Assembly: GCF_002024805.1 (NCBI RefSeq)
Contig: NZ_CP014337.1
Span: forward strand, 62,001 to 126,000
DNA from: Elizabethkingia bruuniana
GTDB taxonomy: Bacteria > Bacteroidota > Bacteroidia > Flavobacteriales > Weeksellaceae
Direction: 5' to 3'
DNA: 64,000 nucleotides
The notes under the pieces were generated by a model. That model searched no databases. It was not told where the DNA came from and was given only the letters and a program-made list of their open reading frames with translations. Shown in pieces: positions 1,940-48,526 of the stretch (position 1 is its first letter; the number at the start of each line of letters is the position of its first letter). The translations under genes were made by a program, and so were the position numbers.

Positions 1940-3817
1940 ATGAAAAAAATAGTACATGTGGCTCTTTTGATGAGTGCACCTTTTCTCCTTGCTCAGGAGC
2001 TGAAGCCTTACGGAGCTGTTCCTTCGGAAAGACAGCTGAGATGGCACGAAATGGAAACTTATGCATTAATACACTTTACGCCTACAACTTTTCAGAATAA
2101 AGAATGGGGGTTCGGAGATGCTTCACCGGAAATTTTTAATCCCACTTCATTCGATGCAAATCAGATTACCAGAGCTGCTGCATCTGCAGGATTAAAAGGA
2201 TTGATTACGGTAGCAAAACATCATGACGGTTTTTGTCTTTGGCCTACGAAAACAACATCTTATAGTATAGCCTCTTCACCATGGAGGGGAGGAAAAGGAG
2301 ATATGGTAAAGGATTTTATGCAGGCTTCCAAAAATGCACATCTCAAATTTGGTGTTTACCTGTCTGCGTGGGACCGAAATGATGTAAGATACGGAACTTC
2401 CGCCTATGCAGATGCTTACAGGGCACAACTAACAGAGCTTATGACTAATTACGGACCATTATTTACCTCATGGCATGACGGAGCAAACGGAGGAGATGGT
2501 TACTATGGCGGGCGTAATGAGAAGAGAACTATTGATCGTACTACATATTATCAGTGGACGGAGAAAACCTGGCCTATAGTAAGAAAGCTACAACCTGGAG
2601 CTGTAATATTTTCGGATATAGGACCTGATATGAGATGGGTTGGGAATGAGCATGGATATGCAGCAGAAACATCATGGGCAACATTTACACCCATAGGATT
2701 AGACGGAAAGAAACCTGTGCCGGGAGCGGCGGTTTATACAAATGCCGGAACCGGAGACCGAAATGGTAAATACTGGATTCCTGCAGAGTGTGATGTACCT
2801 TTACGACCAGGATGGTTTTATCATAAAGATCAGGATGCTAAAGTAAAAACTCCGGATCAGTTGTTTGATATCTATATGAAGTCTGTTGGGAGAGGAGCTG
2901 ATATGAATTTGGGATTATCGCCTATGCCTTCAGGAATCCTTCATGATAATGATGTAAAATCCCTAAAGGCTTTTGGGGTAAAAATAGCAGAAACTTTTAA
3001 AACTAATTTTGCAGAACGGGCAAGTATTAAGGCATCTGATGTAAGAGGTCAAAATCTGAAAAAATTCGGGACACAGTTTATTCTGGATAAAGACCGCTAT
3101 AGCTACTGGGCAACAAATGACGGAGTAACGAAGGCTCAGTTAGATATTAAATTGGCAAAACAGTCAACATTCGATATTATTCGTTTAAGAGAAAATATTA
3201 AACTGGGACAGCGCATAGACAGTGTGAAAATAGAAGGCTTAGTTAACGGAAAATGGGAAACACTCGGTAAGGCAACCAGTATTGGTGCAAACCGCCTGAT
3301 TAAACTGGATAAACCAGTTAGCCTTACGGACCTCAGAGTTCATATTTATGCGCCCGTAGCAATTACACTAAGTGACTTCGGACTGTATAAAGAATATAAA
3401 GAGGCGTTTGTATTCGATCATACAACAGAAGCTAAAAAGATAAAAATTCCTACCGGAATGGCCAGAATAGACCAGGTTATTCTAAATGAAAACTCCAATA
3501 CATTTGTATCTGTTCCAAAGAGTGAATCTTTGATTTTTAATATTGAAGGCCGGAATATTACAGGTTTAGGATATTTGCCTAGACAGGATGGTAAAACTGA
3601 CGGTATGATTACAAAATATGCTGTTTATACCAGCGATGGTAATTCACGCTGGAAGCTGCTAAAAGAGGGCGAATTTTCCAATATAAAAGCCAACCCTGTA
3701 TGGACGAGAATAAACTTTGATAAACCGGTTGCAGCCAAGTTGATAAAACTCGTTCCAAAAGAGCTTACGGAGGGGCTGCAGTTCACCGTTGCCGGAGTTG
3801 AATTTTATGAAGAATAA
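1940..3817 (+). CDS. Secreted GH29 alpha-L-fucosidase
   Basis: Releases L-fucose from glycans. Residues 1-18 form a signal peptide ending LLAQ, so the protein is periplasmic or outside the cell. The GH29 catalytic barrel follows: AKHHDGFCLWPTKTTSYS near residue 95 and SWHDGANGG near 178, where D180 sits at the family's nucleophile position (usual form WFDGANG; here His replaces Phe). The C-terminal 250 residues look like a discoidin-like/CBM32 module. Start: the frame extends to a TTG at 1904, but the ATG at 1940 begins the signal peptide directly. It is a single gene with its own promoter, not part of the PUL at 38 kb. A role in host mucin glycan use is inference. Confidence 0.9.
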   Translation: MKKIVHVALLMSAPFLLAQELKPYGAVPSERQLRWHEMETYALIHFTPTTFQNKEWGFGDASPEIFNPTSFDANQITRAAASAGLKGLITVAKHHDGFCLWPTKTTSYSIASSPWRGGKGDMVKDFMQASKNAHLKFGVYLSAWDRNDVRYGTSAYADAYRAQLTELMTNYGPLFTSWHDGANGGDGYYGGRNEKRTIDRTTYYQWTEKTWPIVRKLQPGAVIFSDIGPDMRWVGNEHGYAAETSWATFTPIGLDGKKPVPGAAVYTNAGTGDRNGKYWIPAECDVPLRPGWFYHKDQDAKVKTPDQLFDIYMKSVGRGADMNLGLSPMPSGILHDNDVKSLKAFGVKIAETFKTNFAERASIKASDVRGQNLKKFGTQFILDKDRYSYWATNDGVTKAQLDIKLAKQSTFDIIRLRENIKLGQRIDSVKIEGLVNGKWETLGKATSIGANRLIKLDKPVSLTDLRVHIYAPVAITLSDFGLYKEYKEAFVFDHTTEAKKIKIPTGMARIDQVILNENSNTFVSVPKSESLIFNIEGRNITGLGYLPRQDGKTDGMITKYAVYTSDGNSRWKLLKEGEFSNIKANPVWTRINFDKPVAAKLIKLVPKELTEGLQFTVAGVEFYEE

Positions 3818-3875
3818 TCGGAACGAAAACTTAATTAAACCTTCTAATTTTTGTAACTTGCATGCCCAATTTTAG

Positions 3876-4709
3876 ATGAAAACTTTGAATAAAGTAAATA
3901 TACAGGGACTTTCTCCAAACCAGCCGATAGGTGTCTTCGACTCCGGGGTTGGTGGGCTTACTGTGGCTAAAGAAATTAAAAGGCTGCTTCCGAATGAAGA
4001 TTTAATCTATTTCGGAGATACTAAACACCTTCCTTATGGTGAAAAATCGAAGGAAGCTATCGTAGAATATTCTACCAAAATCACCAACTTTTTGCTGGAA
4101 CAAAATTGTAAAGCTATTGTTATAGCCTGTAATACTGCAACAGCTAATGCTCTGAAAGAAGTATTAGAACTGGTGGCGGGCAGAGTTCCGGTAATTGATG
4201 TGATTAATCCTGTCGCAGAAAAAGTAGCATATGAAATACATACTAATGTAGGTGTTATTGCTACAAAGGCAACCGTTAATTCAGGACTTTACAGAAAAAG
4301 TATCAGAAAGCACAATAAATTTATCAAAGTAGACGAACTGGCAACTCCGTTACTGGTTCCTGCAATAGAAGAAGGTTTTAAAAATCATCCTATTACTCAT
4401 GCTATTATTTATAATTATCTGAGTAATAATAAGCTGAAAAATATAGAGACACTTATACTGGGATGTACCCACTATCCTTTGCTGCTTGACGAAATCAAAC
4501 AATACTACGGGAACAGGGTGAGGGTTATCGATTCTCCGAATATTGTGGCTAATCAGCTGAAAATAATTCTGGATAAGTATCATTTGCTTAATGAGCAAAA
4601 TCATACGCCTTCTTATCATTTTTATTTATCAGATATTACAAAGAATTTCGAGAAAATTTCGAGAAAATTTTTCGGAAACAAGATTAGCCTGGAGCTAAAA
4701 GTGTTATAG
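3876..4709 (+). CDS. murI: Glutamate racemase
   Basis: Interconverts L- and D-glutamate to supply D-Glu for peptidoglycan. Diagnostic blocks: PIGVFDSGVGGLTVAKEI near residue 17 (catalytic-loop Asp/Ser), ACNTATANA with the first catalytic Cys, and LGCTHYPLLL with the second Cys-His. At 277 aa it is normal for the family. It is monocistronic, with a terminator directly downstream. The 3' end contains a perfect 11-bp tandem duplication (4645-4666) within the codons of the last 25 residues. Confidence 0.97.
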   Translation: MKTLNKVNIQGLSPNQPIGVFDSGVGGLTVAKEIKRLLPNEDLIYFGDTKHLPYGEKSKEAIVEYSTKITNFLLEQNCKAIVIACNTATANALKEVLELVAGRVPVIDVINPVAEKVAYEIHTNVGVIATKATVNSGLYRKSIRKHNKFIKVDELATPLLVPAIEEGFKNHPITHAIIYNYLSNNKLKNIETLILGCTHYPLLLDEIKQYYGNRVRVIDSPNIVANQLKIILDKYHLLNEQNHTPSYHFYLSDITKNFEKISRKFFGNKISLELKVL

Positions 4710-4732
4710 TAAGAGCTCTTTAAAACATTAAT

Positions 4733-4763
4733 AAAAGCCGGAAGAATTATCTTTCGGCTTTTT
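4733..4763 (+). terminator. Intrinsic terminator after murI
   Basis: Hairpin AAAAGCCGgAAG / CTTtCGGCTTTT with a short AT loop, followed by a T tract. It lies 24 bp after the murI stop. Confidence 0.75.
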
Positions 4764-4811
4764 CATTTTTAAAAACATAGTGTCTTATTCTGATAAACGT
4801 TTTATCTTAAA

Positions 4812-4831
4812 TGTATCATAATTATGATACA
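4812..4831. promoter_or_regulatory. Perfect 20-bp palindromic operator upstream of the quinone reductase
   Basis: TGTATCATAATTATGATACA is fully self-complementary. A second copy of its half-site (TGTATCAT) lies at 4880-4887, overlapping the probable promoter (-7-like GAAATTTG at 4874-4881) of the reductase gene. This is the arrangement of a dimeric repressor or redox regulator site. The regulator is not obvious locally; the HxlR protein at 9.8 kb has differently shaped sites. Confidence 0.6.
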
Positions 4832-4905
4832 AAGTTATAAATTAAATTATTTTTATAATTGATTTTTCTGTCGGAAATTTGTATCATCAAAAAAAACAAT
4901 TAGAA

Positions 4906-5526
4906 ATGGAAAATATATTTATCATCAACGGAGGGCAGACTTTTGCACATTCAGGCGGAGCATTTAATAAATCTATTACAGGATGGACAAAAGAAGTTTT
5001 AGAAAAAGAAGGCTTTAAAGTAAGAGTAAGTAATGTTAACGATGAGTTTGATCCTATGGATGAGGCTGAAAACTTTAAATGGGCAGATGTTATCGTTTAT
5101 CATTTTCCGGTTTGGTGGTTTCAGGTACCTAACAGACTTAAATTTTATATAGATGAGGTATTTACTGCCGGACATAAAAATGGTATCTATGAAAGTGATG
5201 GCCGCTCCCGTACAAATCCGCAGATCAATTATGGGACTGGCGGACTAATGCATGGAAAAAAATATTTTGTGACTTCCAGCTGGAATGCTCCGGATACAGC
5301 ATTTACGATGGAGGGAGAGTTCTTTCAACAGAAATCTGTTGATGAAGGTATTTTATTTGGTTTCCACAGAATGAATGCTTTTGCCGGATTGGCTCATATC
5401 GGAAGTTTTCATTTCCACGATATGGAAAAGAATGCTACCCTGGAAAGAGTTAGTCAGTATGAAACCGATTATAAAGAATACGTACAGAATGTTTTCACAA
5501 AAGAAAAATGTGTTCTTCAGAACTAA
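4906..5526 (+). CDS. MdaB-like NAD(P)H:quinone oxidoreductase (flavodoxin fold)
   Basis: FMN/FAD-dependent two-electron quinone reductase of the MdaB/YwrO group, cytosolic. Evidence: N-terminal FIINGGQTFAHSGGAFN flavin phosphate loop, HFPVWWFQVPNRLKFYIDEVF near residue 75, GGLMHGKKYFVTSSWNAP near 115, and normal length (206 aa). An upstream TTG at 4879 extends the frame but overlaps the promoter-like region; the ATG at 4906 starts directly at MENIFIING. The downstream gene is YgiN-like, the same partner as in the E. coli mdaB-ygiN pair. The palindrome at 4812 suggests induction by a ligand or oxidant. Confidence 0.85.
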   Translation: MENIFIINGGQTFAHSGGAFNKSITGWTKEVLEKEGFKVRVSNVNDEFDPMDEAENFKWADVIVYHFPVWWFQVPNRLKFYIDEVFTAGHKNGIYESDGRSRTNPQINYGTGGLMHGKKYFVTSSWNAPDTAFTMEGEFFQQKSVDEGILFGFHRMNAFAGLAHIGSFHFHDMEKNATLERVSQYETDYKEYVQNVFTKEKCVLQN

Positions 5527-5567
5527 AAACAGAAATGAAAATACAATTATAAATAACACATAATTAT

Positions 5568-5858
5568 ATGAAAATCTATTTAACTGCTATATTAAAAGCT
5601 AAAGGAGAGAAAAAAGAAGAACTGTTGGTACTTCTTCAAAACATGGTAGAAAATACAAGAAAAGAAGACGCTTGTATTAAATACGACCTGCAGCAAGGAG
5701 CAGAGGATGAAAATTTATTTATTTTCCATGAGATATGGGAAAATTCAGAAGGATTAGAGCAACATAATCAACAGGATTATATTAAAGCTTTTATATCCAA
5801 AGCTGATGAGTTGTTGGAAGAGCCGGCACAAATATATTTGGCAAATTTAATTTCGTAA
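5568..5858 (+). CDS. YgiN-like antibiotic-biosynthesis-monooxygenase (ABM) domain protein
   Basis: A 96-aa single-domain ABM-fold protein (dimeric alpha+beta barrel). Visible family features: N-terminal strand IYLTAILKAKGEKKEELL, central CIKYDLQQGAEDENLFIFHEIWEN, and a C-terminal EEPAQIYL strand. E. coli YgiN oxidises quinols and forms a cycle with MdaB; having an MdaB-like reductase 41 bp upstream supports the same job here, detoxifying quinones or cycling menaquinone-like compounds. The family also contains stress proteins of unknown substrate, so the reaction is inference. Confidence 0.8.
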   Translation: MKIYLTAILKAKGEKKEELLVLLQNMVENTRKEDACIKYDLQQGAEDENLFIFHEIWENSEGLEQHNQQDYIKAFISKADELLEEPAQIYLANLIS

Positions 5859-5882
5859 CCTAGTTATAAATAGATTTCTGAT

Positions 5883-5920
5883 AAAAAAGAGGTTTCCATT
5901 ATAATGGAAACCTCTTTTTT
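5883..5920. terminator. Bidirectional terminator
   Basis: Long hairpin AAAAAGAGGTTTCCATT / AATGGAAACCTCTTTTTT between convergent genes (ABM gene and patatin gene). A-rich 5' side and T-rich 3' side let it serve both strands. Confidence 0.85.
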
Positions 5921-5931
5921 ATTAAGTAGTA

Positions 5932-8319
5932 TCAGAATTTGAATCCTATACTGAAATATACTCTCCAAATATCGAGTAAATCATTTTTAGAAACATTAAT
6001 GTTAATAGGGCCTAATAGGGATTCGTAACCTAAATTCAGCCCATATCCAATCATACTGATATTACTTTTGAATGGTGAAAGCTCATCACTGAGTATACTG
6101 TAGCTAAAAGAAGGTGTAAGGTAGAATTTTTTCATAATTCTGTATTGCAGAGATAATCCTGCTTTAGCAACAGAGGTTATAGGTAACTCTTTTTGGCGAA
6201 AACCATTAAATTCCGGATTCATGATGTCATAATTATACTCGCTGCCTCCTAAGTTATACTTTTGATTGAGAAATAGATAAGGGTATTGATCTGTATTTGG
6301 TTTCCGGTTTTGATCTGTTTCTTTACCAACACTGGCACCGAGGAAAAGATTAGCCTTAGCAGTAAGCCTTTTGGTAATGGGTTGTGAATAATTTTCGTTA
6401 AGCGTAAACGAAACTATATTTTTGGTTTCTTTATAATTCTCTGATTTAGGGTCCAGTATTGAATTTAATTCAGGCTGAACTTTTGCCAGGTCATACAAAT
6501 CATACTGATCTCCGTAGTAAAATCTCGTACTTACCTGCAGGTGATTCCCTCTGGTGGAAAAATATCTTTTGTTCAGATTGTTCTGCTCAAAATTTAGAAA
6601 AGTGTTAAAATTACTATGGCTGTATAATTTTTTGCTATAGTTATTTACTCTGATCTGGTCTACTTTGTCCAGAAAACGGTTCATTCTCTCTGCACTAAAC
6701 TCGGTTCCGAAAGAAATAAAAGCATTAGGGTGAATATTATAGTTCAGTGCGATTTTCCCGGTAATATTTCTGTACATATAGTTAGGGAATCTTATATTAT
6801 CGTCATCACTATTGGTATCAATTAATCTGAATGTTAAATCATTACTCCGCAGATATACCATTTTCCCTTCCAGATTCAGCCACCAGCGATGTCCATTGTC
6901 CAAAAATTTCTGATAATCTATTCTGGCTTTAAAACGTTCTGCAGCATCTACGGTTACTAACAATCTGGATTTACTGAAAACAAAATTCCGATAAGTGTAA
7001 TTCACAATAATTCCTACAGACTGCTCATTGTCATAATGCAAAGCCACCTTAAATGCTCCCTTCTTTGCTCTTTTTACAAAAATATTCATTGTAAGAGCAT
7101 CACCCGTATTGGTATAAGTATAATATACTTTTTCGTAATGTCGCATTCCGAATACACGGTCTATTGCCTCGTTTACTGTTTTAGCATCATAATAGTTACC
7201 CTCTTTCAGTTCCATCTGTTTGCGGATATTTTCTATTTCGTTAGTATCCGTAATCGGAGTTCCGTCTTCTTCACTAAATGTAAACTGGGTAGTAGGCAAT
7301 TTTACCTCCTCAATCATTTTGTGCTCATATTTTATTCCCAATCTTCGCTGGGTTTCTGCTAATGCTACGAATTCGGATAAGTGTTTTTTTGCTTCTTTCT
7401 CCCCAATTTTTATAATTTCATCATATTTGGCAAAATCTTTTGTGGTGATATCTCCCAGCGGTTTCACGAAGTCAACCATAATATTGGATAGTGCTTTCTG
7501 ATGTTTGAAATCCTCTACTGAACGTATGGCATGTGTCTGATAAATCATCTTCATGGGATTCTCAATCTCCTTTTTGGTAAAAAGCCTGAATCCGGTATAG
7601 CCGCCAACAACAAAATCAGCTCCCATCTCCCTTACTTCGTTTGCAGGGAAATTTCTGTCCAATCCACCATCTACCAAAAGTTTCCCATCAATATAAACAG
7701 GAGCAAATGCTGCGGGGATAGCCAGTGTAGAGCGAATCGCTAAGGGTAAAGATCCTTTTTTCTGCATCACCAATCCGCCATTTTCAATATCAGAAGAAGT
7801 AAGTTCAACCGGAATTCTTAGTTTGCTGAAATCATTGATATGTTTAGCGTTGAAGGTAAGAGTATTGAGAACTTCGCCCATATATTGTCCTTCGATGTAA
7901 GAGCTTGGGAGGGTAGGGAATCCCTTTACAACAGGGAATTCCAGAATATATTTGTCATATTCGTCCTTTTCGCTGATATTGATTTTGTTATATGGGATTT
8001 TATTACTCAGAATTCTGTTCCAATGTACTTTGTAGACAGTTTCTTTTAACTGATCCGCATTATACCCCATTGCATACAGACCTCCAAGAATTCCGCCCAT
8101 ACTGGTTCCGGTAATGTAATCAATCTTAATTCCTAATGAATCAATCATTTTCAGAATTCCCAGGTGTGCAAAACCTTTTGCACCACCACCACTAAGAGCC
8201 AGACCAAATTTGGTGTCTTTGGTAATGTTTTGTAGTGCTGTGTTCAGTGAATCGTTTTTTTGCTGTGATTTTACTGTGAATGAGAAAACTATGATAAGAA
8301 GTAAGGACAGTCTTTTCAT
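5932..8319 (-). CDS. Patatin-like phospholipase fused to an Omp85-type outer-membrane barrel
   Basis: A 795-aa outer-membrane protein. Signal peptide 1-18 (ends VKSQ). Patatin domain about 37-320: oxyanion loop SGGGAKG (43-49), nucleophile GTSMGG with S73, and catalytic Asp in DGG (D217), so a complete Ser-Asp dyad. A POTRA-like segment follows near 360-440, then a C-terminal Bac_surface_Ag-type beta-barrel ending in Phe. The architecture resembles PlpD of Pseudomonas and is common in Bacteroidota; a role in membrane lipid turnover or delivery of the lipase to the surface is inference. The frame opens 30 codons earlier, but the promoter box at 8346-8353 and the signal peptide fix the start at 8319. 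Confidence 0.9.
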   Translation of the reverse strand: MKRLSLLLIIVFSFTVKSQQKNDSLNTALQNITKDTKFGLALSGGGAKGFAHLGILKMIDSLGIKIDYITGTSMGGILGGLYAMGYNADQLKETVYKVHWNRILSNKIPYNKINISEKDEYDKYILEFPVVKGFPTLPSSYIEGQYMGEVLNTLTFNAKHINDFSKLRIPVELTSSDIENGGLVMQKKGSLPLAIRSTLAIPAAFAPVYIDGKLLVDGGLDRNFPANEVREMGADFVVGGYTGFRLFTKKEIENPMKMIYQTHAIRSVEDFKHQKALSNIMVDFVKPLGDITTKDFAKYDEIIKIGEKEAKKHLSEFVALAETQRRLGIKYEHKMIEEVKLPTTQFTFSEEDGTPITDTNEIENIRKQMELKEGNYYDAKTVNEAIDRVFGMRHYEKVYYTYTNTGDALTMNIFVKRAKKGAFKVALHYDNEQSVGIIVNYTYRNFVFSKSRLLVTVDAAERFKARIDYQKFLDNGHRWWLNLEGKMVYLRSNDLTFRLIDTNSDDDNIRFPNYMYRNITGKIALNYNIHPNAFISFGTEFSAERMNRFLDKVDQIRVNNYSKKLYSHSNFNTFLNFEQNNLNKRYFSTRGNHLQVSTRFYYGDQYDLYDLAKVQPELNSILDPKSENYKETKNIVSFTLNENYSQPITKRLTAKANLFLGASVGKETDQNRKPNTDQYPYLFLNQKYNLGGSEYNYDIMNPEFNGFRQKELPITSVAKAGLSLQYRIMKKFYLTPSFSYSILSDELSPFKSNISMIGYGLNLGYESLLGPININVSKNDLLDIWRVYFSIGFKF

Positions 8320-11910: not shown

Positions 11911-12656
11911 CAAACAAATTACGCTATTTCATCGCTTTTTCCTATAACGGCGCATCCTTCTTCGGGTTTCAGATACAACCCAACGAAATTAGTGTCCAGG
12001 AAACTTTGGAAAAAGCATTGAGTACGTTGCTGCGTGAAGACATTAAAATAACAGGTGCCGGAAGAACGGATACCGGAGTTCATGCTAAAAAAATGTATGC
12101 ACATTTTGAAACCAGTAATGTATTGGGAGATCAGCTGGTACATAAGCTAAACAGCTTTTTACCACCAAGTATTGCGGTTCAGGAAGTTTTTCAGGTTTCT
12201 AAAGATCTGCATGCGAGATTCAGCGCGTTATACAGGACTTATGAATATTATATTTCGCTGAAAAAGAATCCGTTTACAGAAAACTCTGCATGGCAGCTTT
12301 GGCGGAAAAAGCTGGATATAGATGCAATGAATAAAGCCTGTGAAATTTTGTTTCAGTATAAAGATTTTACAAGTTTTGCAAAACTGCACACCGATAACAA
12401 AACCAATTTCTGCGAAATGAAAAAAGCGGTGTGGGAGCAACGTGGGGATGAACTGGTATTGACCATTTCAGCTGACCGTTTTTTACGAAATATGGTGCGT
12501 GCAATAGTAGGGACTATGGTGGAAGTGGGTACTGGAAAAATAAAGCCGGAAGATATCCATGATATTATTGAAAAGAAAAACCGGAATGCCGCCGGAACAT
12601 CGGCTCCTGCCCACGGATTGTATCTGGTGGATGTAGGTTATAACTTTGATAATTAA
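11883..12656 (+). CDS. truA: tRNA pseudouridine(38-40) synthase TruA (start uncertain)
   Basis: Modifies the tRNA anticodon arm. Key block GAGRTDTGVHAKKMYAHFET carries the catalytic Asp; RNMVRAIVGTMVEVGTG near residue 200 is the second family block. Length is normal (about 245-257 aa). The usual start, M-R-Y-F-I-x-F-S-Y-N-G, reads L-R-Y-F-I with codon TTA, and there is no ATG or GTG in frame before it. The only common alternative start is TTG at 11883, but this lies within a -7-like promoter box, so either transcription starts further upstream or an unusual start codon is used. Confidence 0.9.
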   Translation: MRIENLDKNTNKLRYFIAFSYNGASFFGFQIQPNEISVQETLEKALSTLLREDIKITGAGRTDTGVHAKKMYAHFETSNVLGDQLVHKLNSFLPPSIAVQEVFQVSKDLHARFSALYRTYEYYISLKKNPFTENSAWQLWRKKLDIDAMNKACEILFQYKDFTSFAKLHTDNKTNFCEMKKAVWEQRGDELVLTISADRFLRNMVRAIVGTMVEVGTGKIKPEDIHDIIEKKNRNAAGTSAPAHGLYLVDVGYNFDN

Positions 12657-12668
12657 GCAGAGGAATAT

Positions 12669-13016
12669 ATGCTGGGAATTTTATTTTTGATCTTTATTTA
12701 TCGGTATTATGCGAACTTAGCAAAACGATATGCTAAAGTTAAATGGCATTATGGGTTACTGGGAAGTATTATTTTTATGGCAGTACAAATGACAGTCGGA
12801 GGTTTGTATGGTTTTTATCTGGCTATTGCAGAACCTGGTGGGCTGGAAGATGAAAGTACTGTTGTAGGGATTACACCACTTAACCTGATTGGCTGGTCAA
12901 TTGCCGGAGGAGCGGTATGGGGAGTTCATAAAATACTTGAACATAAATTGATCAGTGAAAGACAAACCCAGCCCTCTATAGATATAGATCTTATAGGAAA
13001 GAAAGAAACTGAATAA
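12669..13016 (+). CDS. Small integral membrane protein of unknown function
   Basis: 115 aa with three likely membrane segments (about 2-11, 27-50 and 68-86) and a charged C-terminal tail of about 30 residues. No domain recognised. It lies 12 bp after truA and 25 bp before the MsbA-like exporter, all same strand, so it is probably co-transcribed; a link with the exporter is possible but unproven. Confidence 0.65.
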   Translation: MLGILFLIFIYRYYANLAKRYAKVKWHYGLLGSIIFMAVQMTVGGLYGFYLAIAEPGGLEDESTVVGITPLNLIGWSIAGGAVWGVHKILEHKLISERQTQPSIDIDLIGKKETE

Positions 13017-13041
13017 TATAGCCTCTGTTGAGGTAGAAAAT

Positions 13042-14814
13042 ATGAAAAAATTAAGCACTGGAAATATAATTGCCAGACTCTTTAAAATTGGAATGAACTT
13101 CCGGGGTTGGTTTATTTCTGCATTTATTATATCTGTTGTTCTGGCTTTAGTAGGAACATATCGGCCCATACTAACCAAAGATGTTGTGGATAATGACATT
13201 ATTAGGGAGAAGAATTTCGACTTACTAATGCATGATGTTTACCTCCTGATAGGCTTGGTTGCTGCAGAAACAATCCTGAACTTCGGTTTGGTATATCTGT
13301 CCAATTACATTTCGCAAAATGTAATCCGTGATATAAGGGAGCGTTTGTACCGTAAACTTATTTATTTCAAGACTTCATTTTTTGATAAAACAGCTATTGG
13401 TAATTTGGTAACTCGTGCTGTAGGAGATGTGGAAACAATTGCTACTGTATATACAGACGGATTCCTGATGGTTTTTGGAGATGTATTACGTGTAGTTTTG
13501 GTACTGGTAGCTATGTTTAATGTAAACGTTCAGCTCAGCTTTATTGCGCTGGCCATTTTACCGATTATGCTATTGGTTACAAGATTCTTCCAGAAAAGGC
13601 TAAAGAAAGCTTTTGGAGATGAAAGAACCTGGACTGCAACTCAGAATAGCTTTGTACAGGAAAGACTTGCCGGTATGTCTTTAATACAGGTGTTCAACCG
13701 TCAGAAAGCTGAATTTGAAAAATTCGATGATATTAATCAACAATTGAAGGGAGCGCTTTTGCGAACTGTTTTCTTTTTCTCTTTATTTTTCCCGGTAGTA
13801 GAACTTATCTCTTCTGTGTCTATAGGACTTATTCTATTCTATGCAGGTTATAATGCGCTAACAAGTAGTGATGCCAGTCCGGGAGATGTTATTGCATTTA
13901 TTCAGTTTATCAGTATGCTGATTCGTCCGTTGCGTCAGATCGCAGACAGATTCAATAATATTCAGAGAGGTTTGGTTGGTGCGGAACGTGTACTCGGAAT
14001 TATGGACGAGGACAATGCAATGCCTAACAACGGAACTGTTGTAAAAGAAAAGGTTGCGGGGAAAATCGAATTCCAGAAAGTACATTTCTCTTATGATGAG
14101 AAACAAGAAGTATTAAAAGGGATAAGTCTGAAAGTAGAACCTGGACAATCTGTTGCTATTGTCGGGGCTACAGGAGCCGGAAAATCTACCATTATTACGC
14201 TTATTACAAGGTTTTATGATATTAATTCCGGGAAAATATTACTGGATGATATAGATCTTAGGGATTATGAACTTCATCATCTGCGCAGCCATATTGGTGT
14301 TGTATTGCAGGATGTATTTTTGTTCCACGGTTCTATTTACGAGAACCTTACATTAGGTGAAGATATTCCTTTAGAAAGAATAAAACAGGCGGCACAGGAA
14401 ATCGAGGTGGACGAATTTATCGAAAGGTTGCCAGGTGGATATGATTATGTTGTAAGCGAAAGAGGTTCTTCTATTTCATTAGGGCAGCGTCAGCTATTAT
14501 CATTCCTAAGAGCTTATTTAACAAATCCAAGCATTCTGATTCTGGATGAGGCCACATCTTCTATAGACCATGAATCCGAAAAACTGATTCAGAAGGCAAC
14601 TGAAAAAATTACAAAAAACAGAACTTCTATTATTATAGCACACAGACTTTCCACCATTGTAAATGCGGATAAGATTATTGTAATGGATCAGGGTAAAATT
14701 GTAGAGGAAGGAAAACATGAAGAACTGTTGCAAAGAGATGGTTATTATGCTACACTTTACAAGGCACAATTGCACAGAGATGCAGATGATGAGGATGTAA
14801 AAATAGAAGCATAA
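13042..14814 (+). CDS. MsbA-like ABC exporter (fused membrane and ATPase half-transporter)
   Basis: 590-aa half-transporter that works as a homodimer in the inner membrane. Residues 1-325 form a six-helix type IV exporter domain; the ATPase domain follows, with Walker A GATGAGKST, signature SLGQRQ (Leu in place of the usual second Gly: S-L-G-Q), Walker B ILILDEATSSID and the switch AHRLST. MsbA-like proteins flip lipid A or other lipids and export drugs; the substrate here cannot be assigned. Downstream of truA and a small membrane protein. Confidence 0.88.
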   Translation: MKKLSTGNIIARLFKIGMNFRGWFISAFIISVVLALVGTYRPILTKDVVDNDIIREKNFDLLMHDVYLLIGLVAAETILNFGLVYLSNYISQNVIRDIRERLYRKLIYFKTSFFDKTAIGNLVTRAVGDVETIATVYTDGFLMVFGDVLRVVLVLVAMFNVNVQLSFIALAILPIMLLVTRFFQKRLKKAFGDERTWTATQNSFVQERLAGMSLIQVFNRQKAEFEKFDDINQQLKGALLRTVFFFSLFFPVVELISSVSIGLILFYAGYNALTSSDASPGDVIAFIQFISMLIRPLRQIADRFNNIQRGLVGAERVLGIMDEDNAMPNNGTVVKEKVAGKIEFQKVHFSYDEKQEVLKGISLKVEPGQSVAIVGATGAGKSTIITLITRFYDINSGKILLDDIDLRDYELHHLRSHIGVVLQDVFLFHGSIYENLTLGEDIPLERIKQAAQEIEVDEFIERLPGGYDYVVSERGSSISLGQRQLLSFLRAYLTNPSILILDEATSSIDHESEKLIQKATEKITKNRTSIIIAHRLSTIVNADKIIVMDQGKIVEEGKHEELLQRDGYYATLYKAQLHRDADDEDVKIEA

Positions 14815-14864
14815 TTATAGGGATCATTTTAGGAAATTGTTATCTTTAAGAAAGAATTGGACCT

Positions 14865-15314
14865 ATGAAGAAGACGATTTACGATAAAAAGGATATCCGG
14901 AATTATGTAAAAAGCGTTATTGCTGATAAAATCCAAACGCTGGAGAAATTTGTGCATTTTACAAAAGAAGCCAGTAAAGACATTAAAAAAACTCCTAAAT
15001 ACGATAGTGTCCGGGAAGAGGCACATGAAGAAATCTACCAGATGCAAAGGCAGTTGGCAGAACTTCATAAGTTGCAAAACGGAATGGCCCGTGTCCTGAA
15101 TTCTGAAATGTCCGTTATTCAGTTAGGATCATTGGTGATTACCAATAAAGCCCGTTTTTATATTTCTGTTTCCCTGGGAGAATTTTTCTTTGAAGGGGAT
15201 AGAATGTATGCAATCTCTGAAGAGAGTCCTATGGCAAAAATGATGATTGGAAAGAAGGTAGGTGATGAGTTTGTTCTCAATCGGATTCATCAAAAGATTG
15301 AGGAAATATACTAA
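14865..15314 (+). CDS. GreA/GreB-like protein with an altered coiled-coil tip
   Basis: 149 aa. The C-terminal half (about 85-149) matches the FKBP-like domain of Gre factors (FEGDRMYAISEESPMAKMMIGKKVGDEF aligns with the ISxxSPLGxALxGKKVGD block). The N-terminal half is a coiled coil. In GreA the loop at the tip reads DLKENAEY and its Asp and Glu hold the catalytic Mg in RNA polymerase; here the matching residues read DIKKTPKY, keeping Asp but replacing Glu with Lys. RNA cleavage activity may therefore be lost, with binding to RNA polymerase kept. This is my alignment by eye. A terminator follows. Confidence 0.7.
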   Translation: MKKTIYDKKDIRNYVKSVIADKIQTLEKFVHFTKEASKDIKKTPKYDSVREEAHEEIYQMQRQLAELHKLQNGMARVLNSEMSVIQLGSLVITNKARFYISVSLGEFFFEGDRMYAISEESPMAKMMIGKKVGDEFVLNRIHQKIEEIY

Positions 15315-16911: not shown

Positions 16912-17160
16912 TTTTGGGAGTAATCTGCAAATATTCGAAAAAAAAGAGAGACCTGAATCAATTAAATCTGTAAATTTCAATTATTGGTGATTTAATAAGG
17001 TTTACTGACTTGATAATGAGTAGTTTTGGTGATTGATCTATAGAGAATATTTTATAACCGAACAGATATATTCGATGTAGAAATGATTGGCAAATAAGTG
17101 TTGAAAAACTTTGAACGTGTAACTTTAGAGTCTGTTTGAATTTTGATTAAAAAATATTAG

Positions 17161-17236
17161 ACTTCGACAGGCTCAGTCTGACACTCCTAAAAGGAAGATA
17201 TCTTGAACGAGTAATGTCACTCTGAGCCTGTCGAAG
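17161..17236. repeat. REP-like palindrome, family A (CTTCGAC...GTCGAAG)
   Basis: Two arms in inverted orientation, left 17161-17183 and right 17215-17236, match over about 22 bp with two differences (blocks CTTCGACAGGCTCAG and CTGAGCCTGTCGAAG). The same family, with a slightly different centre, flanks the GIY-YIG gene at 31.2 and 31.6 kb. It lies between divergent genes with no coding potential. Confidence 0.85.
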
Positions 17237-17285
17237 AGTATTAACAATAAAATTTAGACAGGCTTTAGAATTGAAAGTTTTTTTA

Positions 17286-31199: not shown

Positions 31200-31264
31200 G
31201 AACGTTTCGACTTAGTAAAGTGTAGACTTTGTGTCACGCTGAGCGAAGTCGAAGCGTTTTTTTT
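31200..31264 (+). repeat. REP-like family A repeat forming the valS terminator; left flank of GIY-YIG unit
   Basis: Hairpin arms AACGTTTCGACTT (31201-31213) and AAGTCGAAGCGTT (31246-31258) followed by T8 form a terminator 10 bp after valS. Within it, 31232-31256 (TGTCACGCTGAGCG then AAGTCGAAGCG) matches, in inverted orientation and with 22 of 25 bases, the segment 31638-31662 at the end of the GIY-YIG gene, and also the solo repeat at 17161. Confidence 0.8.
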
Positions 31265-31316
31265 ATCATAAAATATTTTGTAAATTTCTTTCATATTCCT
31301 GATTAATAGTCGGATA

Positions 31317-31676
31317 TTGAAAGAGTATTATGTTTATATTATTAAGTGTGCAGATAACTCCTATTATACAGGAGTTACAAGAGATTTGTTACAACGTTTG
31401 CAACAACATGAATCAGGATATAATTCCAAAAGCTATACACATAATCGTAGACCCGTTAGATTAGTCTATTATTGTGTGTTTTCAGATATAAATGATGCAA
31501 TTTTATTTGAAAAGCAAATTAAAGGTTGGAGTAGAAAAAAGAAAGAAGCATTAATAGATGGAAATTTTAATAAGCTTAAAGAATTATCCATTTGTACAAA
31601 CGGTACACACTTTAATAACTATCAAAAAGACAAAGAAGGCTTCGACTCCGCTCAGCCTGACAATTCTGCTGAATAA
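31317..31676 (+). CDS. GIY-YIG family endonuclease (UvrC N-terminal-like, single domain)
   Basis: 119 aa. GIY-YIG core: YYVYIIKCADNSYYTGVTRDL (VYI and YTG elements), catalytic Arg in RLQQHESG, and catalytic Glu in FEKQIKGWSRKKKEALI. Such single-domain proteins (YhbQ/SLX1-like) are plausible DNA nucleases. The start is TTG at 31317, since no ATG is in frame there. The last 14 residues (GFDSAQPDNSAE) are encoded by the family A repeat itself (31638-31662), so the gene's end has fused with a repeat. The function of this copy is unknown; the repeat link suggests a part in repeat spread. Confidence 0.85.
   Translation: MKEYYVYIIKCADNSYYTGVTRDLLQRLQQHESGYNSKSYTHNRRPVRLVYYCVFSDINDAILFEKQIKGWSRKKKEALIDGNFNKLKELSICTNGTHFNNYQKDKEGFDSAQPDNSAE
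31638..31662. repeat. Family A repeat, right flank of GIY-YIG unit
   Basis: Blocks CTTCGACTCCGCTCAG and CTGACA; the inverted complement of 31232-31256 with three mismatches in 25. It lies inside the last codons of the GIY-YIG gene, 13 bp before its stop. Confidence 0.85.
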
Positions 31677-48016: not shown

Positions 48017-48069
48017 ATAATTATTATTTTTTTATTAATAGAAATTAATGGGTAATGAATCAGTCGTTT

Positions 48070-48093
48070 GTGAATGTGTCAATGAGTGAATTG
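48070..48093. repeat. Inverted repeat, left end of four-helix-bundle unit
   Basis: 24 bp with blocks GTGAATG, GTCAATG and AGTGAATTG. It matches the reverse complement of 48491-48514 at 22 of 24 positions. Confidence 0.85.
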
Positions 48094-48107
48094 TGAATAA
48101 TTAATTT

Positions 48108-48461
48108 TTATGATTTTAAAAGATTACTTAGTAAAATGAATGTTGATATGATATAATTTCCTAATTCTGTCAATTCTTCTGGTTTTATATAATTTCTTTC
48201 AATAATAACCTCGCAGCAGGTATCGATTTCTACTATTGAGCCTCTTGCGATTTTATAAAATCTGTTTCTTTCTGTTTTTGATTTTCTGGATGAACCTTCG
48301 GATATATTTAATAGTACTGATGTTGATGCTCGTTTCAGTTGGCTTTTTAAATTAAAATTTTCAGAATCAGGTAATTTTTCAAGAATATCATAAGATGCAT
48401 TAAGTAGCTTCTTTGCTGATTTATAAACTTCCAGATTTTGATGATTCAATTTTAAAAACAT
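48108..48461 (-). CDS. Four-helix-bundle protein (23S rRNA-IVP / S23 family)
   Basis: 117 aa, predicted four antiparallel helices, with the family blocks NLEVYKSAKKLL, FNLKSQLKRASTSVLLNISEGSSRKSKTER, FYKIARGSIVEIDT. Related in fold to Avd proteins of diversity-generating retroelements, but no reverse transcriptase is nearby. It lies inside the MacAB-type operon between permease and adaptor, bracketed by 24-bp inverted repeats (48070-48093 and 48491-48514). Its own function is unknown; position and repeats point to insertion as a small mobile unit. Confidence 0.9.
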   Translation of the reverse strand: MFLKLNHQNLEVYKSAKKLLNASYDILEKLPDSENFNLKSQLKRASTSVLLNISEGSSRKSKTERNRFYKIARGSIVEIDTCCEVIIERNYIKPEELTELGNYIISTFILLSNLLKS

Positions 48462-48490
48462 AACATACTATTTTATTGATATATTCACCT

Positions 48491-48514
48491 CAATTCACTT
48501 ATTGACCCATTCAC
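48491..48514. repeat. Inverted repeat, right end of four-helix-bundle unit
   Basis: Reverse-complement partner of 48070-48093, two mismatches. Read on the minus strand it forms part of an 8-bp array (AGTGAATA, GGTGAATG, GGTCAATA, AGTGAATT) at 48491-48523. Confidence 0.85.
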
Positions 48515-48526
48515 CTATTCACTGTT

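Follow-up and report, generated by a model that had tools for sequence, protein, structure and literature searches.

The GIY-YIG family Ssn, reportedly described in Nature Communications in 2025, is said to cut single-stranded DNA at a repeat of Neisseria (NTS), to affect transformation, and to have thousands of homologues. REP-like sequences rank among the most common bacterial repeats, and in proteobacteria REPs and RAYT transposases constitute an established pair. Another group, the CGTC-tagged REPs, was defined by Di Nocera et al. in 2013 as repeats with a tag that is often TGTC and a stem that starts with AT; they are intergenic, form head-to-head dimers, and include repeats of Bacteroidetes and the dRS3 repeat of Neisseria (PMC3733652). 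Neither an associated transposase gene nor any other enzyme gene was reported for these repeats, which were concluded in 2013 to be apparently without a dedicated transposase (PMC3733652).

The window analyzed here, by which we mean the whole 64-kb stretch of DNA (G000:C1:62001-126000), comes from an Elizabethkingia genome of 4.43 Mb. Downstream of valS, an ORF with a TTG start (31317..31676, plus strand) encodes a protein of 119 aa that matches the Pfam GIY-YIG domain (PF01541) at 3.6e-20, in agreement with an earlier note on this DNA, in which the gene had been called a GIY-YIG nuclease. The catalytic residues Y7, Y17, R27, H31 and E65 are conserved in homologues, and Y17, R27, H31 and E65 are invariant among 24 of them; the protein is a small, single-domain GIY-YIG enzyme with conserved catalytic residues, as is characteristic of the Ssn/NTS system. 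Its predicted structure is a good model (pLDDT 85) that matches UPF0213 and Slx1-type GIY-YIG structures, the nearest solved ones being PDB 1zg2 and 1ywl, and searches of PADLOC and NCBIfam returned no family for it. A second close homologue in the same genome (G000:C1:660097, L067) has no flanking repeats and is possibly domesticated or decaying.

The nuclease gene is bracketed by two 26-nt REPs in inverted orientation, both of the form TGTC-ANNCT-loop-AGNNT. The left REP (31232..31257, plus strand) is composed of the TGTC tag, an ACGCT stem, the loop GAGCGAAGTCGA and an AGCGT stem, and its tag is directed away from the gene; the right REP (31637..31662, minus strand) reads TGTCAGGCTGAGCGGAGTCGAAGCCT on the minus strand and overlaps the 3' end of the nuclease ORF. 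The earlier note had recognized segments 31232-31256 and 31638-31662 as inverted complements at 22 of 25 positions, which we confirmed, and the inverted pairing extends to 31 nt at 87%. It had also proposed that the right copy supplies the last codons of the nuclease (ending in EGFDSAQPDNSAE before the stop codon), and this was borne out by the sequence, in which the final 13 codons lie largely inside the right REP. A search of Rfam gave nothing at the gathering level. Inverted pairs of such a match at a spacing of 300-500 bp occur at only two loci in the 64-kb window. The other 22/25 pair (48069-48515) brackets a gene for a 117-aa 23S rRNA intervening-sequence protein (48108-48461, minus strand; PF05635, 7e-28), with genes for an efflux-type adaptor and an ABC permease as its neighbours.

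The repeats of the window resemble the CGTC-tagged REPs in having a CGTC or TGTC tag, a stem that starts with an A-T pair, a short loop and an intergenic location, and the genome also contains head-to-head dimers (five 60-bp pairs), which are here located inside a MITE. The window REP differs in its stem and loop from the CGTC-tagged REPs of 2013, which have stems of 8-9 bp and loops of 4-5 nt. As in REP/RAYT systems, imperfect hairpins with a tag lie in inverted orientation on either side of the enzyme gene, non-autonomous copies occur singly and in pairs, and enzyme and repeat co-vary; unlike in those systems, the enzyme is a GIY-YIG protein and not a Y1/HUH transposase, and the tag is TGTC or CGTC instead of GTAG. 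The type of enzyme and the TGTC tag rule out the window gene as a RAYT. The likeness to Ssn/NTS, the characterized relative, lies in a small, single-domain GIY-YIG enzyme and a multi-copy, cognate, short hairpin repeat, but the repeat sequence and the host phylum are different. The inverted-copy bracket, the co-diversification of repeat and nuclease, and the gain and loss of units were derived from sequence for the window system; by its sequence and context, the window gene appears to belong with the Ssn kind.

Recurrence of the bracket was examined in three samples of Bacteroidota. A PF01541 search of 59 relatives yielded dozens of small GIY-YIG genes, and stretches of 4-20 kb around most of them formed sample 1, with stretches around UvrC genes as a control. 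We scored a hairpin motif with a [TC]GTC tag, a 5-bp stem starting from A and a loop length of 3-20, within 200 bp upstream and 300 bp downstream. In these order-level relatives, hairpins were found upstream of 20 of the 75 small GIY-YIG genes (1.9 expected) and downstream of 20 (2.9 expected), and 15 genes had them in both positions, where chance would give well under 1; the 19 UvrC controls had one upstream hairpin, one downstream, and none on both sides. When flanking inverted repeats were scored without the motif, a score of at least 14 was reached by 35 of 74 GIY-YIG genes against 0.33 expected, and by 0 of 19 UvrC genes. Sample 2, which is phylum-wide and shares a few of its 89 loci with sample 1, gave both-sided hairpins at 51 loci (about 0.5 expected) and motif-free scores of at least 14 at 43 (0.10 expected). 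Sample 3 comprised 79 loci of the window gene's closest clade, taken from GTDB genomes; the same repeat core was detected upstream in 66 (3.0 expected) and downstream in 61 (4.3 expected), and 53 loci had it in both positions. In this clade both tags pointed outward in 37 of 53 nearest REP pairs, and overlap of the downstream core with the end of the ORF was common (24 of 53 downstream cores).

Within the same Bacteroidota loci, both-sided tagged hairpins flanked 49 of 134 small GIY-YIG genes and 0 of 464 other ORFs (p about 5e-36), a comparison in which the reach differs slightly, the GIY-YIG windows being set from domain edges and the ORF windows from ORF ends. This p value is nominal, because the genes are not independent by descent, and the spread over genera is the stronger point. 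The earlier note had held that its hypothesis, in which the nuclease or its relatives spread or process the repeats, would fail if the homologues of other genomes were not flanked beyond chance; they are flanked far above chance in all three samples, and the ORF and UvrC controls are not. Chance or plain intergenic clustering is ruled out by the UvrC, random-placement and ORF controls, and the bracket observation is real and general.

The repeats differ among clades of the nuclease. Repeats of the TGTCATTCCGNAGGAATCT class accompany 'IEFTEGIY' proteins, TGTCATTGCGAGGNACGAAGCAATCT accompanies 'MKPGFIYILTNK' proteins, and TGTCATTTCGACGNAGGAGAAATC accompanies 'GYHTYYVYI' proteins; CTGAA-type hairpins are found in another group and CTGAGC-type hairpins in the clade of the window gene. 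On a tree of 216 nuclease proteins, 140 of which had a repeat assigned to one of nine classes, the classes required 22 changes, compared with a mean of 66 and a minimum of 61 in 300 shuffles. Paralogues within one genome may have different repeats: Elizabethkingia miricola (G001), the sister of the window genome, has a GNAG repeat at valS and a YTG repeat at its second copy, and G011 has TCCGNAGGA twice and GCGAGG once. In each case the differing repeats match the clade of the paralogue, and since paralogues of one genome carry different classes, host ancestry alone is insufficient to account for the match between nuclease and repeat. A single universal repeat was ruled out, as most loci have a class of their own. 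A further trait shared by gene-near hairpins is a loop that opens with GA and, in most cases, closes with GA or AA (128/192), ends that are compatible with tandem G.A pairs.

Tandem arrays of three to four small GIY-YIG genes at a spacing of 345-410 bp were also observed (G014:C1:870969-872299, G034:C13:15040-16279 and G016:C8:1965-2994), and in G014 and G034 palindromes such as TCTCGGCTNAGCCGAGA and TCCGCCAATGGCGGA lie between the genes of the array. The tandem arrays (G014, G034, G016 and G009) belong to other clades and are without tagged REPs. Kilobase-scale arrays of tandem repeats are present near GIY-YIG genes with CGTC hairpins at L171 (G253:C1:1478000-1494000; positions 2330-6740 and 12270-14870) and at L327 (G129), as if the repeat had been amplified locally.

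The core CTGAGCGNAGTCGAAG has 8 exact copies in the window genome and the sister core CTGAGCYTGTCGAAG has 25; two of the core copies are at the nuclease gene. Nearly all genome copies consist of an unpaired TGTC tag, a 5-bp stem that starts with A, the loop and the returning stem. The stem occurs as ACGCT/AGCGT, AGGCT/AGCCT, ACTCT/AGAGT, ATGCT/AGCAT, ACATT/AATGT and other variants, so that stem bases vary by compensation while the tag and loop are constant. Among 27 distinct copies from this genome, 96% of the stem cells are paired, 35 cells are changed on both sides of the stem (11.3 in shuffles and 0-6 in slid controls), and an A-T pair opens the stem in 22. Compensated stems with a fixed tag and loop are the pattern of a hairpin that would be recognized as single-stranded nucleic acid, and the predicted DNA hairpin of the repeat is compatible with single-strand recognition. 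The folding energy of single 28-mers, calculated for DNA, was not below that of shuffles for the window repeat class, and the case for the hairpin therefore rests on covariation.

The earlier note had reported the same repeat family alone, as a palindrome, at 17161-17236. Related REPs do exist there, but they are of another subtype (CTGAGCCTGTCGAAG). A REP of the CTGAGCYTGTCGAAG subtype (17159..17183, minus strand), which has lone copies in this genome and is cognate to another nuclease lineage, is accompanied by a second, inverted REP of that subtype 60 bp away (17215..17239, plus strand), forming a REPIN-like pair. Both lie in a MITE-like element (17124..17268, no strand assigned) of about 145 bp with terminal inverted repeats of about 17 bp (AGAGYCTGTTTRAATTT); the element has five copies in the genome, each with two head-to-head REPs 60 bp apart. 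The MITE rather than the nuclease may be the spreader of REPs of the 17124-17268 type.

A comparison of strains at valS found the REP-nuclease unit to be present in some Elizabethkingia and absent in others: it is carried by the window genome, G001 and G005, and is missing from G003, where the next gene is 99% identical, and from G004. In G005 the nuclease gene of this unit is frame-shifted, and the right repeat has decayed in both G001 and G005. At a second site, a unit of 448 bp is present in G001 and a decayed copy of it in G005, as against 19 bp in the window genome and G003. No lone REP was detected at the two Elizabethkingia empty sites, from which we conclude that repeats and gene were gained or lost together; the edges of the empty sites are not exactly at the REP ends. 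In G194 the similarity of two dispersed copies runs from the outer CTGTCACCCTGAGC to the outer GCTCAGGGTGACAG, which are TGTC tags, and the sequences beyond are unrelated; the within-genome duplicates of G108 and G242 are also alike, but are inside REP clusters. Elizabethkingia genomes with the gene or a remnant contain 51, 33 and 32 copies of the repeat, and those without it 7, 1 and 0. Among the 59 genomes, with kinship ignored, carriers of a strict-clade nuclease have 8-51 copies and the others a median of 0; many copies in the absence of a strict-clade nuclease are found in G008 (94), G052 (38) and G017 (30).

The bracket, its recurrence, the match between repeat class and nuclease lineage, the constraint on the stem, the link to copy number, and the gain and loss of units are all observed in the sequence analysis. 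Because the bracket recurs across Bacteroidota and beyond, and the type of repeat changes along with the type of enzyme, it is very probable that the enzyme acts on the repeats; their co-diversification strongly implies that the nuclease would process or bind them, and it is a plausible candidate for the agent that spreads them. We consider it probable that the REP-nuclease-REP unit encodes a small, site-specific, Ssn-like GIY-YIG endonuclease between inverted copies of the very sequence on which it acts. That substrate would be a [C/T]GTC-tagged hairpin formed in single-stranded DNA, and is predicted to be TGTCACGCTGAGCGAAGTCGAAGCGT for the window nuclease. The enzyme would bind the TGTC tag and the hairpin loop in single-stranded DNA and then nick; less certainly, the nick would lead host repair or recombination to copy the hairpin, or the whole two-hairpin unit, to new places. 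Lone REPs and head-to-head pairs would be its non-autonomous derivatives, comparable to the REPs and REPINs of RAYT systems. We have high confidence in one part of the proposal, namely that the tagged hairpin is recognized and nicked in single-stranded form, and movement of the unit and its repeats through such nicks and host repair is a part that we put forward only tentatively. GIY-YIG enzymes hydrolyze DNA and form no covalent intermediate, and for this reason they cannot transpose alone. Other points that speak against the proposal are the missing lone REP and the inexact edges at the empty sites, the second close homologue of the window genome with its repeat-free flanks, and the many copies in G008, G052 and G017.

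One could envisage instead that the repeats are mobilized by a RAYT-type Y1 transposase encoded elsewhere and that the GIY-YIG gene is enclosed by two REPs only as a bystander. The proteobacterial pair is a precedent, and the window genome does have one Y1_Tnp gene (G000:C1:2846204; L049, L139); however, this gene is flanked by an inverted palindrome of its own, CCCGATAGCGCGGATTTGTAATCCGTG, in RAYT-like fashion, and no REP core of the window type lies closer to it than about 16 kb. Both-sided tagged hairpins were found at none of 27 Y1_Tnp loci of relatives, 17 of which have other inverted repeats of their own, which argues that RAYTs keep their own REPs and that the TGTC repeats go with GIY-YIG. 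The CGTC REPs, moreover, are without a transposase according to Di Nocera et al. (PMC3733652). The 27 loci largely refute a RAYT as the mobilizer, which we regard as scarcely credible. The view of the earlier note that the arrangement resembles REP/RAYT, with a GIY-YIG nuclease in place of the Y1 enzyme, is supported. A still weaker case can be made for ordinary bidirectional terminators or intergenic repeats that by chance lie near a short gene. REPs are generally intergenic, and the left copy, which the earlier note took for the valS terminator, has a 5-bp stem and a 12-nt loop followed by T8, but a terminator scan called no intrinsic terminator there. The absence of both-sided tagged hairpins from the 464 control ORFs and the tracking of nuclease phylogeny by repeat class are also at odds with this explanation, which is refuted by the controls and has a negligible probability.

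A free-standing homing endonuclease, spreading by cutting gene-less alleles and using the flanking repeats as homology arms or terminators, would suit the classical homing fold that GIY-YIG represents and the presence or absence of the gene at two sites. Homing enzymes, however, keep one conserved site, whereas these genes are at unrelated sites that have the flanking repeat alone in common; the REP is missing at empty sites, and tens of repeat copies have no gene, so that homing seems very unlikely. More deserving of attention, although in our judgment still rather unlikely, is a nuclease for which the repeats are a substrate without mobility: it would cut REPs in single-stranded DNA that is incoming or exposed and so control transformation or recombination, the repeats would have spread otherwise, and the bracket would reflect retention of the gene at places that have its sites. 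This is the role reported for Ssn/NTS in Neisseria, GIY-YIG chemistry fits cutting and not transposition, and the repeats of the window genome are also carried by a MITE. It does not by itself explain why, in most genomes of the clade, inverted copies enclose the gene, why duplicates are alike only to the outer tags, or why units are gained and lost.

If the REP-nuclease-REP unit does spread through its own nicks, it would be a hydrolytic counterpart of REP/RAYT that moves hairpins by way of single-strand nicks and host repair. We offer as a conjecture that REP-GIY-YIG-REP is autonomous and that small GIY-YIG nucleases may be the missing mobilizers of CGTC/TGTC REPs across phyla. The CGTC/TGTC superfamily, which had no known enzyme in 2013, is now tied to one small nuclease family (PMC3733652 for the former). 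The nine repeat classes, each linked to enzyme lineages, provide ready pairs of enzyme and substrate with which the spread or use of the repeats can now be put to a direct test, both in vitro and in tractable Flavobacteria, and they could yield site-specific single-strand cutters with differing recognition sequences.

Homologues outside Bacteroidota were taken from records of a plasmid collection. The window nuclease has the fold and family of YhbQ/YazA (UPF0213), but, unlike the window gene, the Klebsiella yhbQ and B. subtilis yazA loci are without flanking repeats on both sides, as are the R. tumorigenes and S. paeninsulae loci. CGTC or TGTC REPs flank GIY-YIG genes in Azospirillum, Shinella, Rhizobium sp. 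CIAT894, Novosphingobium, Sphingobium and Planktothrix, and the GIY-YIG flanks of Sphingomonas parapaucimobilis carry the identical core CTGAGCGAAGTCGAAG. In N. gonorrhoeae the gene is flanked by CGTCATTCCCGCGCAGGCGGGAATC, which is dRS3 (CGTC-1); its product, which we take to be Ssn itself, is 37% identical to the window nuclease over 79 aa. The flanked genes outside Bacteroidota are those of alphaproteobacteria, cyanobacteria and Neisseria. On plasmid AZO_p3 of Azospirillum lipoferum (L312), a GIY-YIG gene with CGTC REPs is located between sufB and sufC, which are normally within one operon, and this position suggests that the unit was inserted there.
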